The notes below the pieces were generated by a model. The model made no database searches, had not been told where the DNA came from, and saw nothing but the letters and a program-made list of their open reading frames with translations. The position numbers and the translations under genes were made by a program. From the NCBI RefSeq assembly GCF_900104055.1, contig NZ_FNJQ01000002.1, forward strand, positions 1-64,000: a stretch of 64,000 nucleotides of DNA, given 5' to 3'. This DNA is from Pseudoselenomonas ruminantium. Lineage in GTDB: Bacteria > Bacillota > Negativicutes > Selenomonadales > Selenomonadaceae. Below, one piece after another: positions 21,162 through 39,085 of this stretch (positions are counted from its first letter, which is position 1; each line of letters opens with the position of its first letter).

Positions 21162-22580
21162 ATGGATTTTGCAACGTTGATGGCGGACATCAATAACTTC
21201 GTCTGGGGACCGGTTATGTTGGGATTGCTGGTGGGCACGGGCGTATTCCTGACCGTCCGTTTGAAATTCCTGCCCTGGCGTAATCTTGTGTATGCTATCC
21301 GCATGATTTTCCGTCATAGGGATGAACATGAGGGAGATATTTCGCCGTTCCAGTCGTTGATGACGGCGCTTTCGGCCACTGTGGGTACCGGTAACATTGT
21401 CGGTGTGGCTACCGCTATGGTGCTTGGCGGCCCCGGTGCTCTGGTCTGGATGTGGATCAGCGCGGCTTTTGGCCTGTCCACGAAATACGCGGAGTCGGTA
21501 CTGGCGGTCAAATACCGTGAGACGAATTCCGTCGGCGAGATGTCCGGCGGCCCCATGTACGCAATGCGTCATGGCATCAAGAATAAATTCGTTGGCCGTA
21601 CACTGGCGTTCCTGTTTGCCCTGTTCGTGGTCCTGTCGTCCTTTGGCATCGGCAATATGACGCAGGCCAATTCCATTGCGGCGGCCCTGTCTTCAAGTTA
21701 TGCAGTGCCTGCCTGGCTGACGGGCGGCGTGATTGCTTTCTTTGCGATGGTGGTGCTGATTCGTGGCATCCGCAGTATTGGTAAGGTGTCGAGCGTTGTG
21801 GTGCCGGGCATGGCGGCGTTTTACTTCGTAGCGGCCACTATCGTGATCATCGCCAATATCGAGGCCGTGCCCGCGGGGATTGTGGAAATGTTCCGCATGG
21901 CTTTCTCCTTTGATTCTGTGGCCGGTGGTGTCGGCGGCTCCATCGTGGCTACCATGCTGACCTCCATGCGCTGGGGCGTGGCCCGTGGCGTGTTCTCCAA
22001 TGAGGCCGGCCTTGGCTCGGCGCCCATTGCGGCAGCTGCTGCCCGTACCGACCATGCTTCCCGTCAGGGATATGTCAATATGACCGGTACGTTCTTTGAT
22101 ACCATGATCGTCTGCATGCTGACCGGTTTGGTTATCGCATCTTCCGGTATGCTCGGGGCCACGAACCCGGCCACGGGCGAGCTGCTCTCCGGTGCGGAAC
22201 TTACGATTGCGGCCTTCAGCACGGTTTTCGGCGACTATGGCAAGCTGATCATCTCCATTTCCTTAAGCTTGTTTGCATTCTCTACGATTCTGGGTTGGGA
22301 ATACTACGGCGAAAAGGCCTTGGAGTATTTGATCAAGACACGCCCGGTCATCATGGGCTACCGCATCCTGTTCAGTCTCGTGACCTTTGTGGGTGCGACG
22401 ACGGCACTCGAAGTGGTCTGGAACTTCTCCGATACCATGAATGGCCTGATGGCAATCCCTAACCTTATCTGCCTCTTGTGGCTCAATAAGGATATTGCCG
22501 ACGAATGCTTTGAATTCCAGCGCGAAGTCGTGGTGAAGGAAAAGCAAGGGGAAGTCGTGGATATGAACTGCGGATCTTAA
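21162..22580 (+). CDS. AGCS-family sodium:alanine (amino acid) symporter
   Basis: The 472-residue protein is an alanine or glycine:cation symporter of the AGCS family (AlsT type). Signature segments are SALSATVGTGNIVGVA, GGPGALVWMWISA, KYRETNSVGEMSGGPMY and RGVFSNEAGLGSAP, which form the substrate and Na+ sites in this family. About ten hydrophobic segments span the inner membrane. ATG 21162 follows GGGATG. It stands alone between the purine operon and a convergent gene; the substrate, alanine versus glycine or glutamine, cannot be set from sequence. Confidence 0.93.
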   Translation: MDFATLMADINNFVWGPVMLGLLVGTGVFLTVRLKFLPWRNLVYAIRMIFRHRDEHEGDISPFQSLMTALSATVGTGNIVGVATAMVLGGPGALVWMWISAAFGLSTKYAESVLAVKYRETNSVGEMSGGPMYAMRHGIKNKFVGRTLAFLFALFVVLSSFGIGNMTQANSIAAALSSSYAVPAWLTGGVIAFFAMVVLIRGIRSIGKVSSVVVPGMAAFYFVAATIVIIANIEAVPAGIVEMFRMAFSFDSVAGGVGGSIVATMLTSMRWGVARGVFSNEAGLGSAPIAAAAARTDHASRQGYVNMTGTFFDTMIVCMLTGLVIASSGMLGATNPATGELLSGAELTIAAFSTVFGDYGKLIISISLSLFAFSTILGWEYYGEKALEYLIKTRPVIMGYRILFSLVTFVGATTALEVVWNFSDTMNGLMAIPNLICLLWLNKDIADECFEFQREVVVKEKQGEVVDMNCGS

Positions 22581-22602
22581 TAATACATATCAGTACAAAG
22601 GC

Positions 22603-22681
22603 GCCCGCCCCGCTGGTAATACTTTCCTTCACTTTGACAAGCTTGTCAAACGTTACGGAAAGCATCACCAGCGGGGCGGGC
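22603..22681. repeat. Structured terminator element, copy 1
   Basis: GCCCGCCCCGCTGGT (22603-22617) pairs perfectly with 22667-22681. Inside is CTTTCC/GGAAAG (22622-22627 with 22657-22662) around an 18-base perfect palindrome at 22633-22650. T-runs flank both sides, so it can serve as a bidirectional terminator for the convergent symporter and OstA-like genes. Its loop sequence is shared with the element at 28798-28879, while the outer stem differs. Confidence 0.75.
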
Positions 22682-22700
22682 TTTGTATATCCTTATTCAG

Positions 22701-23234
22701 TTAGCGAACCACATCGTCTTTTTCCAGGTCGAATTCCAAATGGCTCGTGGTATTGCTCTTGCCACGATGAACCCATAGCACATGTCCATCAAAGATGACG
22801 ATATGCGTTTCCCAGTTATACTGCATATTGTCTCCATGAATCACGAGCCCGGGCCGTTCCACGCCACAGCGGTTGCCGAAGAACCAGACCGTATTGCCGG
22901 AAAGCTCGGCATAGAGGGCATCGCCCGTGAAAGTGAGTTCCCCTTCGGTGATGGTTGCCCGTCCGTCTGCCCAAACCTGTAGGGTGTTGGCATTGACTTT
23001 GGCATTGTTGGCGGCGATGGTGCGTCCTGCACATTGAATGCGCACATTGCCTGTGAGCTGGTAAAGTCCGCTCTCTTCATTATAGCTAGTGCGGTCAGCG
23101 CTGATAACAGGCTGGTACCTGCTTTTGGCCATATCGGTGTTTATCGTATGGCCGGGGGTGCCAGCTTCGCTGAGGCCGGGGGCTATAAACATCAGGGAGA
23201 TGATCAGTAACAGGGAAATGCGTATTTTCATCAT
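22701..23234 (-). CDS. OstA/LptA-like periplasmic protein
   Basis: The 177-residue product has a signal peptide (MMKIRISLLLIISLMFIAPGLSEAG, cleaved near residue 24) followed by an OstA/LptA-like beta-jellyroll: repeated strands such as GLYQLTGNVRIQCAGRTIAANNAKV and GELTFTGDALYA. LptA-family proteins carry lipopolysaccharide across the periplasm. The gene is not in an lpt cluster, so it may be a paralogue rather than the main LptA. ATG 23234 has AAAGGAG upstream. It supports a diderm envelope. An inverted repeat CCCTA-AAA-TAGGG (23274-23286) lies in its promoter region. Confidence 0.75.
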   Translation of the reverse strand: MMKIRISLLLIISLMFIAPGLSEAGTPGHTINTDMAKSRYQPVISADRTSYNEESGLYQLTGNVRIQCAGRTIAANNAKVNANTLQVWADGRATITEGELTFTGDALYAELSGNTVWFFGNRCGVERPGLVIHGDNMQYNWETHIVIFDGHVLWVHRGKSNTTSHLEFDLEKDDVVR

Positions 23235-26621: not shown

Positions 26622-27877
26622 GAAAGAACAATCTCATGAAGCTGATTGTCTGTGTCGTCGCCATCATTGGCATTTTCCTGGCCTTTGTAAAGCCGCTGGC
26701 TTTCTCGATTCGTCAGGGCCTCGATCTGCAGGGCGGTACCCATGTGGTGCTCGAAGCAGAGGACACAGATATTGCAAAAGTAAATGATGACGCCATGAAC
26801 CGTGTGGTCACGATCATGGAAAAGCGCGTCAACTCTTTGGGCCTTACGGAGCCGATTATTCAGCGCGAAGGTGAGCGCCGGGTGATCATCGAACTGCCGG
26901 GCGTCAAAGATCCGGATGCGGCCATCAAGACCATCGGCAAGACTGCTATGCTGGAATTCAAGGATGAAGAAGGCAATACCGTGCTCACGGGTACGGACCT
27001 GAAGGATGCCCAGGCGGCAACCAATCAGCAGAGCGGCCAGAACGTGGTCAATCTGGAATTCTCCGATGAAGGTGCACAGAAGTTTGCCGACCTCACGACG
27101 AAAAACGTCGGCCGCACGATTGCCATCCTGCTGGACGGCGAAGTGCTGACGGCGCCGAATGTCCGCGAGCCGATTCTCGGCGGCAAGGCGGAAATCACGG
27201 GGCAGAAGACGCTGGAAGAAGCGCAGAACCTGGCTGTCGTGCTCCGAAGCGGTGCCCTGCCGGTCAAAGTCAACATCATCGAAACCCGTACGGTTGGCCC
27301 GACGCTTGGTCAGGACTCCAAGGATAAATCCGTCTTTGCCTTTGCTGTCGGCATTGGTGCGGTATTGATCTTCATGCTGCTGTTCTACCGCCTGTCCGGT
27401 TTTATCGCTGACGTGGCGTTGATGGCTTATACGGTAGTGCTGCTGGCGTTGCTGTACCTGCTCGATGCTACGCTGACTCTGCCTGGTGTAGCTGGTATCA
27501 TCTTGTCCATCGGTATGGCCGTAGATGCTAACGTGCTGATTTTCGAGCACTTCAAGGAAGAATATCAGATTCAGGGCAAGACTCTGCGTCTGTCCATGGA
27601 TGCAGGCTTCAAACGTGCGTTCACGACCATCTTTGACTCCAATATCACGACGATTATCGCCGCCGGTGTGCTGTTCTTCTTAGGCACAGGCACGATTCGC
27701 GGCTTTGCCATCACCCTTGGCTTGGGCACGATGCTGTCCATGTTGACGGCTATCACGCTTTCGCAGTATCTGCTGAAGCTCATGATCAATTCCAAGATTT
27801 CGGAAAATCCCGGTGCATATGGTGCTAACGGCTATATGCTGTGGAAAAAGGAGGACTTGAAGCATGAACAAGCTTGA
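26618..27877 (+). CDS. secD: Protein translocase subunit SecD
   Basis: The 419-residue RND-type inner membrane protein helps complete Sec export using the proton gradient. It has an N-terminal membrane segment, the conserved FSIRQGLDLQGGTH motif, a periplasmic P1 region, and five C-terminal membrane segments ending in GMAVDANVLIFEH. The start is TTG 26618 inside the previous stop; ATG 26636 is an in-frame alternative. Overlaps secF by 14 bases. Confidence 0.96.
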   Translation: MRKNNLMKLIVCVVAIIGIFLAFVKPLAFSIRQGLDLQGGTHVVLEAEDTDIAKVNDDAMNRVVTIMEKRVNSLGLTEPIIQREGERRVIIELPGVKDPDAAIKTIGKTAMLEFKDEEGNTVLTGTDLKDAQAATNQQSGQNVVNLEFSDEGAQKFADLTTKNVGRTIAILLDGEVLTAPNVREPILGGKAEITGQKTLEEAQNLAVVLRSGALPVKVNIIETRTVGPTLGQDSKDKSVFAFAVGIGAVLIFMLLFYRLSGFIADVALMAYTVVLLALLYLLDATLTLPGVAGIILSIGMAVDANVLIFEHFKEEYQIQGKTLRLSMDAGFKRAFTTIFDSNITTIIAAGVLFFLGTGTIRGFAITLGLGTMLSMLTAITLSQYLLKLMINSKISENPGAYGANGYMLWKKEDLKHEQA

Positions 27878-28781
27878 TATTGCCGGACGCTCCAAACTCT
27901 GGTTTGCCATTTCCAGCATCATCATCGTCGCCGGACTCATCTGCATGTTTACCCGGGGCTTTAACTTCGGTATCGACTTCACGGGCGGTACGATTATCGA
28001 TCTGAAATTTGAACGCCCGGTGGCTATCGCTGAGGTGCGTACGAGTCTTGCTAAGTTTGGCCTCGAAGGTTCTCAGATCCAGCTGACCGGCGCAGAATCC
28101 GGAGTGACCGAAGCAGAAAATGTCATGATCCGTACAACGGACATGGAAGAGGAACAGCGCAAGGATGTCATGGCGGCCATCAAGACCGATGTGGGCAATT
28201 ATGATGTGCTGCGCGAGGAAAAAGTCGGTGCCACGATTGGCGGCGAGCTGATTACCAATGCCGTATTGGCCCTTGTGGTTTCCTGGGCGCTGATCATTGC
28301 CTATGTAGCGTACCGCTTTGAATGGCGCTTTGGCGTGGCCGCGGTATTGGCCCTCGTTCACGATATCCTCATCGTGCTGGCGGTGTTCTCCTTCACGGGA
28401 CGGCAGATCGATTCTTCGTTCATTGCAGCGCTGCTGACGATTGTTGGTTATTCCATCAACGATACCATCGTTATCTTTGACCGCATCCGAGAGAACCTCA
28501 AGCTGCATTTCCGCCGTGGCGGCGATGTGAACCATCTGGTCAACACTTCCGTATTCCAGACGCTCACGCGCTCTCTGTACACGGTGTTCACGGTTATGTT
28601 CACGACGTTTGCCCTGTATTTCTTCGGCGGCGAAACGACGAAGGACTTCGCCTTTGCCCTGCTGATCGGTTTCGGCAGCGGCTGTTATTCGTCCATCTTC
28701 ATCGCCAGCCCGCTCTGGGTGGCACTCCGTAAGATGGGGGACAAGAAAAAGGTTGTGGCCAGTGCGGCTGCAGCCAAATAA
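27864..28781 (+). CDS. secF: Protein translocase subunit SecF
   Basis: The 305-residue partner of SecD. Six membrane segments; conserved NFGIDFTGGTIID after the first, and SINDTIVIFDRIREN plus TLTRSLYTVFTV near the C-terminus are SecF hallmarks. ATG 27864. Followed by the structured terminator element copy 2. Confidence 0.96.
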   Translation: MNKLDIAGRSKLWFAISSIIIVAGLICMFTRGFNFGIDFTGGTIIDLKFERPVAIAEVRTSLAKFGLEGSQIQLTGAESGVTEAENVMIRTTDMEEEQRKDVMAAIKTDVGNYDVLREEKVGATIGGELITNAVLALVVSWALIIAYVAYRFEWRFGVAAVLALVHDILIVLAVFSFTGRQIDSSFIAALLTIVGYSINDTIVIFDRIRENLKLHFRRGGDVNHLVNTSVFQTLTRSLYTVFTVMFTTFALYFFGGETTKDFAFALLIGFGSGCYSSIFIASPLWVALRKMGDKKKVVASAAAAK

Positions 28782-28797
28782 TACGATATGCTAAGAC

Positions 28798-28879
28798 GCC
28801 CGGTGGGCTGGTAATATTTTTTCTCCGCTTAGACGTAAGCCGTCAAACGTTGCGGAAAAACATCACCAACCCGCCGGGC
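28798..28879. repeat. Structured terminator element, copy 2
   Basis: GCCCGGTGGGCTGGT (28798-28812) pairs with 28865-28879 (one wobble, one mismatch). The 52-base loop again contains TTTTTTC...CCGC/GCGG and a GAC...GTC hairpin, and shares AATA-TTT, GTCAAACGTT-CGGAAA and CATCACCA with the element at 22603-22681. It ends the secF transcript. The outer stem sequence differs from copy 1 but the pairing is kept. Confidence 0.75.
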
Positions 28880-29021
28880 TTATTGTGTTGTAATGGACTT
28901 TGGCTGGACATACTGTTTGATTTTACAGCGAATAAAATTAGTTGTTTGGCAGGAATTGGCAGACACGCTGGAGAACTTACCAACGTAGATATATTTATGG
29001 AAAGGGAAAAGGAGGTTTAGT

Positions 29022-29357
29022 ATGTTCAAACGTATATTGATAGCCTTTGCTGTTGCAGTATCACTGATGTTCACCGTGGTGCCGGATGGCTGTGCGGAGG
29101 CAGATTCGGTTTATATGGGGACATACAGTGATGGTACGAATGCCTATCTCTTGACGGAAAGTGTATATCTGAAGAGCAGAAGCCCATACACTTTCGATTG
29201 CACCATCGTCTACTCGGGAGTCAGCCTGTATTACTCTTTTTATCCCGTGAATGGCAGCCCGTATTACCGTAATTCTGAAGGGTATGAGGGCTATGTTTTT
29301 GGGGGCCAGTCGCCGGTGGCTTCGAATATCTATCAATATGTGGTGAATCACTGGTAA
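29022..29357 (+). CDS. Small secreted protein of unknown function
   Basis: The 111-residue product has a signal peptide (FKRILIAFAVAVSLMFTVVP, then CAEADS) and a short mature domain rich in Tyr and Ser, with repeated beta-strand-like stretches (YMGTYSDGTNAYL, YSGVSLYYSFYPVNG). GGAGG lies 7 bases before ATG 29022. I do not recognise the family. The Cys in VPDGCAEA is not in a clear lipobox. It stands alone between the secF terminator and a convergent gene; export to the periplasm or cell surface is likely. Confidence 0.75.
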   Translation: MFKRILIAFAVAVSLMFTVVPDGCAEADSVYMGTYSDGTNAYLLTESVYLKSRSPYTFDCTIVYSGVSLYYSFYPVNGSPYYRNSEGYEGYVFGGQSPVASNIYQYVVNHW

Positions 29358-29373
29358 AATTCTACAGACAAAA

Positions 29374-29402
29374 AATGCGGTCCCTGACGTGGGGACCGCA
29401 TT
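29374..29402. terminator. Bidirectional terminator
   Basis: AATGCGGTCCC (29374-29384) pairs with GGGACCGCATT (29392-29402). It lies between two convergent genes and has A-rich and T-rich flanks on either side, so it can end both transcripts. Confidence 0.8.
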
Positions 29403-38164: not shown

Positions 38165-38174
38165 TTTATTCGTG

Positions 38175-38277
38175 ATATCTCCGAGCCAAGTGATCTAAGG
38201 CAGGGCGCATTGCTATGATGCTTGGCCGGAACGGGATTCCGTTCCCGGGTGCAGGGAGAAATCCTTACACCTTCCGC
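38175..38277 (+). promoter_or_regulatory. Molybdenum cofactor (Moco) riboswitch-type leader
   Basis: The leader shows CTCCGAGCC, AGGCAGGGC, a long-range CCAAG/CTTGG pairing (about 38186-38190 with 38221-38225), hairpin GGAACGG/CCGTTCC (about 38227-38244), and the near-invariant GGTGCAGGGAGAAATCC...TTACACC block. These segments fit the Moco RNA motif as I recall it, and the downstream molybdate transporter is a typical target. With Moco or tungsten cofactor bound, expression should fall. I could not run the covariance model; the tungsten-preferring variant cannot be excluded. Confidence 0.72.
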
Positions 38278-38299
38278 AATTTGAAAAGGAGTGGTAGAA

Positions 38300-39085
38300 A
38301 TGAGAAAAATTTTTGCGCTGGTGATGTCTGTGGTGATGATGCTGGCCTTAGGCTGTGGCAGTGAACAGGCTAAGCCGGAGAAAAAGGCTGAGCCCGTGGA
38401 ACTGCATGTGGCAGCGGCGGCCAGCCTGACGGATGTGATGCAGGAAATAGCGGCAAACTACGAGAAGGAACATCCAAATGTGAAGATCACCTTCAATTTC
38501 GGCAGTTCCGGTGCTTTGCAGCAGGCCATCCAGAACGGTGGTCAGACGGATTTGTTCTTCTCGGCGGCGCAGAAGCAGATGAACGCACTGGAAAAGGATG
38601 GATTGCTGGCTGATGGGACCCGCAGGGACTTATTGGTCAATGAAGTGGTGCTGATCGTACCGCGTGAGGGCGGCAAGGCAATCACGGATTTCCAGCAGCT
38701 GACAGGCGCAGATATCCGGCATATCGCCTTGGGCGAGCCCAAGGGCGTGCCGGTGGGGCAGTATGCTGAGGAAGTATTCACGAAATTAGGCCTTCTTGAG
38801 TCCATCAAGGGCAAGGCAGTCTATGGTTCGGATGTGCGGCAGGTGCTTTCCTGGGTGGAATCCGGTGATGCTGATTGCGGTGTGGTCTATGCAACCGATG
38901 CAGCCGTGTCCAAAAAGGTCAAAGTCGCAGCCAAGGCACCGGCGGATACCCATAAGCCGATTATCTATCCGGCAGCTGCCCTGAAGGAATCCAAGCATCT
39001 GGCTGAAGCTAAGGATTTTTTGGCGTATGCTGCTAATGATGCAAATAAGAAGCTCTTTGAAAAATATGGTTTTGAAGTGAAGTAA
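38300..39085 (+). CDS. modA: Molybdate-binding lipoprotein
   Basis: The 261-residue substrate-binding protein of the molybdate ABC importer. A lipobox LALGC puts the lipidated Cys at position 19. The mature N-terminus ELHVAAAASLTDVMQEIA and FNFGSSGALQQQI-like segment near residue 70 form the oxyanion site of ModA. ATG 38300 with AAGGAG upstream; GTG 38291 is too near the ribosome site. Confidence 0.95.
   Translation: MRKIFALVMSVVMMLALGCGSEQAKPEKKAEPVELHVAAAASLTDVMQEIAANYEKEHPNVKITFNFGSSGALQQAIQNGGQTDLFFSAAQKQMNALEKDGLLADGTRRDLLVNEVVLIVPREGGKAITDFQQLTGADIRHIALGEPKGVPVGQYAEEVFTKLGLLESIKGKAVYGSDVRQVLSWVESGDADCGVVYATDAAVSKKVKVAAKAPADTHKPIIYPAAALKESKHLAEAKDFLAYAANDANKKLFEKYGFEVK

Follow-up and report, generated by a model that had tools for sequence, protein, structure and literature searches.

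What is the palindrome at 22603–22681 of the window, the 64,000-nucleotide stretch of Pseudoselenomonas ruminantium DNA analyzed here, and why does a sequence much like it follow a second gene at 28798–28879? The initial annotation called the pair a terminator element in which a loop of roughly 50 bases is conserved while the outer stem changes, and offered a regulatory RNA domain, a protein-binding terminator and a mobile palindromic element as possible identities. Both sets of coordinates proved exact, and the two copies belong to a single repeat family; aligned over 134 columns they share a mean column identity of 81%, and their outer stems differ in sequence yet each pairs, as had been proposed.

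We denote as P the strand with the sense of the upstream gene, which is the plus strand at both copies, and as M the opposite strand. The hairpin of copy 1 (22603..22681), whose P strand reads GCCCGCCCCGCTGGT-AATA-CTTTCC-TTCACT-TTGACAAGCTTGTCAA-ACGTTAC-GGAAAG-CATC-ACCAGCGGGGCGGGC, has its outer stem at 22603-22617 and 22667-22681, with the inner stem and core in between, and is covered by a covariance-model match at 22596-22684 on the minus strand (E 4.5e-20). It is preceded on the plus strand by a 5′ linker (22592..22602) that is a reduced form of the family flank, with consensus GGTTTACATCG..TG.TAAGRC, and is followed by a tail (22682..22691, TTTGTATATC) with a weak T-tract on the P side. 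The stop codon of a gene of the sodium:alanine symporter family (AgcS-like; 21162..22580, plus strand) lies about 20 nt upstream, and a convergent gene (22701..23234, minus strand), which by its appearance we take to encode an LptC/LptA-like export protein, lies beyond. Copy 2 (28798..28879; match at 28791-28882 on the minus strand, E 2.0e-16) begins about 11-16 nt after the stop codon of a gene that, judging by its protein, is secF (27864..28781, plus strand); its linker (28785..28797, GATATGCTAAGAC) agrees with the family consensus, its tail (28880..28892, TTATTGTGTTGTA) again has a weak T-tract, and a small secreted protein-like ORF (29022..29357, plus strand) lies outside the element. The nearest relatives of the window's SecF are from S. 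ruminantium genomes (Selenomonas). Two exact matches to the core word GTCAAACGTTNCGGAAA occur in the window, and three when up to 3 mismatches are allowed, against 0.42 expected.

The supposed loop is itself paired and holds a conserved core, so that the element is one long hairpin: the stem continues through CTTTCC/GGAAAG, a 3x3 internal loop and TTTGAC/GTCAAA. The idea of a conserved loop in a changing stem was therefore right in substance, with a conserved inner stem carrying fixed mismatches taking the place of the loop. A complete unit is made up of a 5′ linker of about 20-25 nt, a hairpin of 75-85 nt and a short T-rich tail. The conserved family core, fixed mismatches included, is CTTTCC-TTCGCT-TAGAC...GTCAAACGCTGCGG-AAAG; the outer stem varies freely yet stays paired, and the outer ends of the family are GCCCG/CGGGC. 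Compared with dinucleotide shuffles, copies 1 and 2 fold with z-scores of -8.7 and -3.9 on the plus strand and of -12.1 and -6.9 on the minus strand. M is more stable than P as RNA (-64.4 versus -53.5 kcal/mol in copy 1) and also as DNA (-37.3 versus -32.3).

Covariation on the stem, a check suggested at the outset, was assessed in a covariance-model alignment of 96 matches (89 distinct copies), used because a MAFFT alignment of all copies put the outer stem out of register. In this alignment, which is fitted to the model and hence leans towards structure, pairing is kept in 94.9% of cells and 26 of 34 pairs have double-sided changes; none of 500 shuffles attains any of five pairing measures, and slid controls drop to 40-50%. 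Despite that leaning, pairing is plainly kept, because outer stems diverge so widely among copies: after one and the same tRNA, for example, they are GCCCGGTGAC/GTCACCGGGC at L008 and GTCCGGGCAC/TGCCCGGAC at L037. Covariation means that pairing is maintained, and does not alone prove an RNA function, since hairpin-templated repair can give the same pattern. As to strand, close to where the outer stem meets the inner one there are two positions that in most copies read A.C on P and hence G.T on M; at the two fixed mismatch positions G.T on M occurs in 54 and 65 of the 89 distinct copies, and the reverse wobble in none. Wobble pairs of the whole stem were tried as a means of telling the strands apart and were rejected, as the bias is confined to these two positions and the outer stem has none; it accordingly does not decide between RNA and single-stranded DNA. 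On M the 3x3 internal loop is GNA/GAA, and most copies retain the G.A and A.G that flank it.

The annotation had made its reading depend on further copies, and these exist: 18 good ones in the window's genome (G000), and numerous others spread over 11 further genomes of its genus. A pattern search gave extra copies in the genome, and a covariance model was built from six copies; as a palindrome often matches on both strands, its 39 matches reduce to 18 good loci and a few degenerate ones, about twenty copies. Among 60 relatives searched, 12 genomes were positive, all in the window's genus, with dozens of copies in relatives, the match numbers there being at-least values that count both strands and hence not copy numbers. 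Across 380 genomes of the class, searched with stricter filters that may lose weak matches, 12 of 22 members of the genus (Selenomonas) and 0 of 358 others were positive. Carriers are separated from non-carriers by one branch in each of two gene trees (support 0.998-0.999); they are one Selenomonas clade, the S. ruminantium group, as fits a single origin or gain, and copy number varies among species of this clade. Rfam 15, at gathering and relaxed thresholds, gave no family for the element, only chance matches to miRNA-type hairpins far below threshold, and in the open-access literature we found no paper describing such repeats in Selenomonas. A search of plasmid DNA with the locus returned matches only to the symporter gene, in Thioclava.

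Where the copies lie was surveyed in 42 distinct clusters, comprising the genome's own loci and retrieved stretches of four relatives, on which genes were called with a simple codon-usage caller; the G003 and G017 stretches were picked for containing matches. In 37 of these clusters a same-sense transcript end (a tRNA in one case) lies no more than 60 nt upstream, and none is inside a gene. Where codirectional genes flank the site, P is the gene-sense strand in 20 of 21 cases, a result with a coin-toss probability of about 1e-5, and the distance from stop codon to element start has a median of 23 nt and is mostly 11-42 nt, compared with 20 nt for ordinary terminator hairpins. The host genes are diverse, including those for the symporter, secF, cheV, a murA-like protein, a tRNA and pgi/adh. 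One well-conserved copy of the window's genome is an exception (L010 1501-1590, C27:30895-30984), lying between the divergent pgi and adh, and a few degenerate copies are also away from gene ends. As about 20 copies follow stop codons in the direction of the gene, the element has the look of a repeat that spreads and at the same time marks where transcripts end.

This position invites comparison with intrinsic (Rho-independent) terminators, which the element resembles in being a stable, GC-rich hairpin that follows the stop codon by 10-40 nt, shortly 3′ of the gene on its sense strand and with a T-rich tail, and in standing where relatives have plain terminators. It differs in being a very long hairpin with a conserved core in place of a short loop, in its usually weak T-tract, and in being a single repeat family at many unrelated genes. 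Separate ordinary terminators were found at 2 of 25 element-bearing ends as against 194 of 405 element-free ends (Fisher p 4.5e-5); the scan itself matched 8 of the 25, and by coordinates only those 2 lie apart from the element. The mean tail score after the hairpin is -2.40 on the P side, -0.91 on the M side and -1.58 for shuffled P tails, so that P is the T-richer side, whereas ordinary terminators here reach -4.20; some copies have full T-tracts. The label of terminator is in part borne out, by the gene-end position, the sense orientation and the replacement of plain terminators. An ordinary bidirectional terminator, AATGCGGTCCC...GGGACCGCATT with a T-tract, lies at 29374-29402 of the window, between the small ORF after secF and a convergent beta-lactamase-like gene, and provides a plain control for the element.

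Orthologous junctions offer a further view. Between the symporter and lptC-like genes (the agcS junction), the element is found in G000, G003, G008, G010, G011 and G020, several of these carriers having in addition a second, T-tracted core hairpin towards the convergent gene; G004 has the plain terminator AAAAAGCCCGATGGACTGTTTTAAAAACAGTTTCATCGGGCTTTTT; in G013 and G017 the family core lies within a terminator flanked by a T-tract on either side; and G006 has a short form with the core deleted. The second hairpin sub-type at this junction (L218-L223), which faces the convergent gene in several relatives, has core TTTCTGAAGCGTTTGAC...GTCTAAGCGGAAGAAA within AAAAGCCCGG...CCGGGCTTTT and T-tracts on both sides. 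Behind secF most carriers have the element or an array, and plain terminators are found in G001, in other Selenomonadaceae and in G004, which carries the element elsewhere. At a third junction G013 is without the element, and G017 and G004 have different versions, that of G004 with a T6 tract. The element thus occupies terminator positions, and intermediates between element and terminator exist.

In several relatives the copies form arrays of 2-5 units, with one unit per 112-124 bp and two or more core sub-types represented. Array units are in tandem and in the same orientation, the last often being inverted and with a different outer stem, and the tail of one unit runs on into the 5′ linker of the next. 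ACATC occurs in the unit's linker in 38 of 81 first copies, compared with 1.9 in shuffles; a conserved GTTTACATCG box, lying after the stop codon and before the hairpin (e.g. L038, L047, L059), is part of the repeat unit. The array 3′ of secF in L078 (NZ_KE384126.1) contains a run of N, probably an assembly gap due to the repeats. Non-allelic copies within one genome are a median of 72% alike, the one 100% pair being a single locus retrieved twice, and up to 97% alike in G003 (94-97% in the hairpin), pointing to a spread that for the most part happened long ago in the window's genome, and more recently in G003. The dispersed and tandem copies lend the mobile palindromic element of the annotation partial support.

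Of the known mobile palindromes, REP/BIME sequences of enterobacteria and Pseudomonas (the GTAG and CGTC super-families) share with this family their many extragenic copies, often soon after stop codons (here 18 good ones in G000, more in relatives and none intragenic), their arrays with inverted members and their lineage-specific copy number. REP elements measure 20-40 bp and carry at one end an unpaired tag, GTAG or CGTC (PMC3733652), whereas the present unit is about 80 bp, has no such unpaired 5′ tag (its 5′ neighbor on P is AAGRC, and CGTC occurs only at the 3′ side of M, overlapping the stem), combines a free outer stem with a conserved core, and forms tandem arrays mostly in the one, gene-sense orientation, closed by a single inverted unit, a partial likeness to the alternating orientation of units in REP/BIME arrays. 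A search for RAYT/Y1 (PF01797) found none in the copy-rich G010, G011, G017 and G005 and no correlation with copies across genomes, and RAYT/Y1_Tnp was rejected as the mobilizer. Failing on size, tags and RAYT, the element is not classed as REP; it is REP/BIME-like and probably doubles as a terminator.

We suggest that the element, as a member of this lineage-specific dispersed family of composite hairpins, acts as the 3′-end signal of the preceding gene's transcript, a role we consider probable but far from certain and one that fits its position, sense, tail and replacement of terminators; a lineage-specific REP/BIME-like palindrome would then have come to stand where transcription terminators stood and probably to do their work. 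The P-strand RNA hairpin may stop RNA polymerase and/or block 3′ exonucleases, and release may be helped by the T-tract, which is weak on the whole but stronger in some copies. The family could have spread by copying, either by transposition in trans or by gene conversion at single-stranded hairpins, and sites at gene ends may have been retained because a copy there replaces a terminator harmlessly, and the core may be kept as a recognition site for the copying machinery or for a host factor. A more far-reaching version, a 'terminator takeover', is offered tentatively: a domesticated mobile palindrome, its core read by a dedicated trans-acting factor (a recombinase or an RNA/DNA-binding protein), would have replaced terminators at many unrelated genes of a bacterial clade, its insertion or retention being confined almost entirely to the sense orientation. 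Against these stands a purely selfish REP/BIME/MITE-like palindrome with no 3′-end role, for which gene ends would be tolerated or targeted insertion sites (e.g. terminator hairpins). The copy number that varies between species of one clade, the tandem arrays with an inverted end copy, the 94-97% likeness of non-allelic hairpins and the lack or shortening of the core at certain orthologous sites (G004, G006) all agree with it, but tolerated insertion alone does not lead one to expect sense orientation at 20 of 21 sites, nor a T-rich tail on the sense side only; as ordinary terminators are also missing at element-bearing ends, and no correlated RAYT/Y1 transposase was found (the copy-rich genomes have none), we regard this explanation as possible but doubtful.

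Two features fit a 3′-end role poorly: the T-tract is weak, and the antisense strand folds better, mRNA termination not predicting the better fold of M, where two conserved A.C become G.T. The copy between pgi and adh and the degenerate copies away from gene ends also count against that role. The core could thus still be the single-stranded DNA recognition site of a recombinase. Integron attC sites lie after stop codons, fold better on the antisense strand and contain a bulged base and an internal loop, all of which the element shares; the ends of the element vary and its core is conserved, the reverse of attC. Selection on a folded M strand as single-stranded DNA, read by a recombinase or transposase as attC sites or REP hairpins are, would account for its better fold as RNA and as DNA, for the G.T mismatches seen on M and never reversed, and for a conserved G-N-A/G-A-A internal loop and bulged G that are ordered on M only. 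We think it unlikely, because outer-stem wobbles are without strand bias, so that the G.T positions may come from the founder, and because no HUH transposase correlates with the copies. An attC-like site as such was rejected: there are no RYYYAAC/GTTRRRY ends (GCCCG/CGGGC instead), no cassettes and no integron layout, the copies following unrelated single housekeeping genes. Quite improbable, in our judgment, is a 3′-end regulon in which a dedicated protein or small RNA, by binding the conserved core of the terminator, would control read-through at many genes together. It would explain why the outer stem drifts but the core and its fixed mismatches do not, and why the core also occurs within full T-tract hairpins at the lptC-like end, but the host genes are diverse with no common pathway seen, no partner gene was identified, and there is no Rfam family; for the regulatory RNA domain and protein-binding terminator of the annotation, the conserved core is the one direct support. 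Scarcely credible at all is a DNA uptake word borne in terminators as in Neisseria and Haemophilus. Uptake words in other bacteria are linked to predicted terminators (PMC1852404), and the element does have a repeated word within terminator-like hairpins, but here the conserved words are not enriched outside elements: GTCAAACG occurs there 22 times against 37.8 expected, and three 11-12-mers have 0 occurrences elsewhere.

A 3′-end role would mean that, in a common rumen bacterium, numerous host genes have a dispersed repeat, fixed in gene-sense orientation, as their working 3′-end signal. The family also adds a new example to the palindromic repeats that lack a RAYT. The orthologous junctions, with a plain terminator, a core-deleted form, a T-tract form, the full element and arrays, form a natural series in which conversion between repeat and terminator can be tested. 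Elsewhere in the window, 38167-38307 on the plus strand matches the Molybdenum/tungsten cofactor riboswitch (RF01055, 71 bits).
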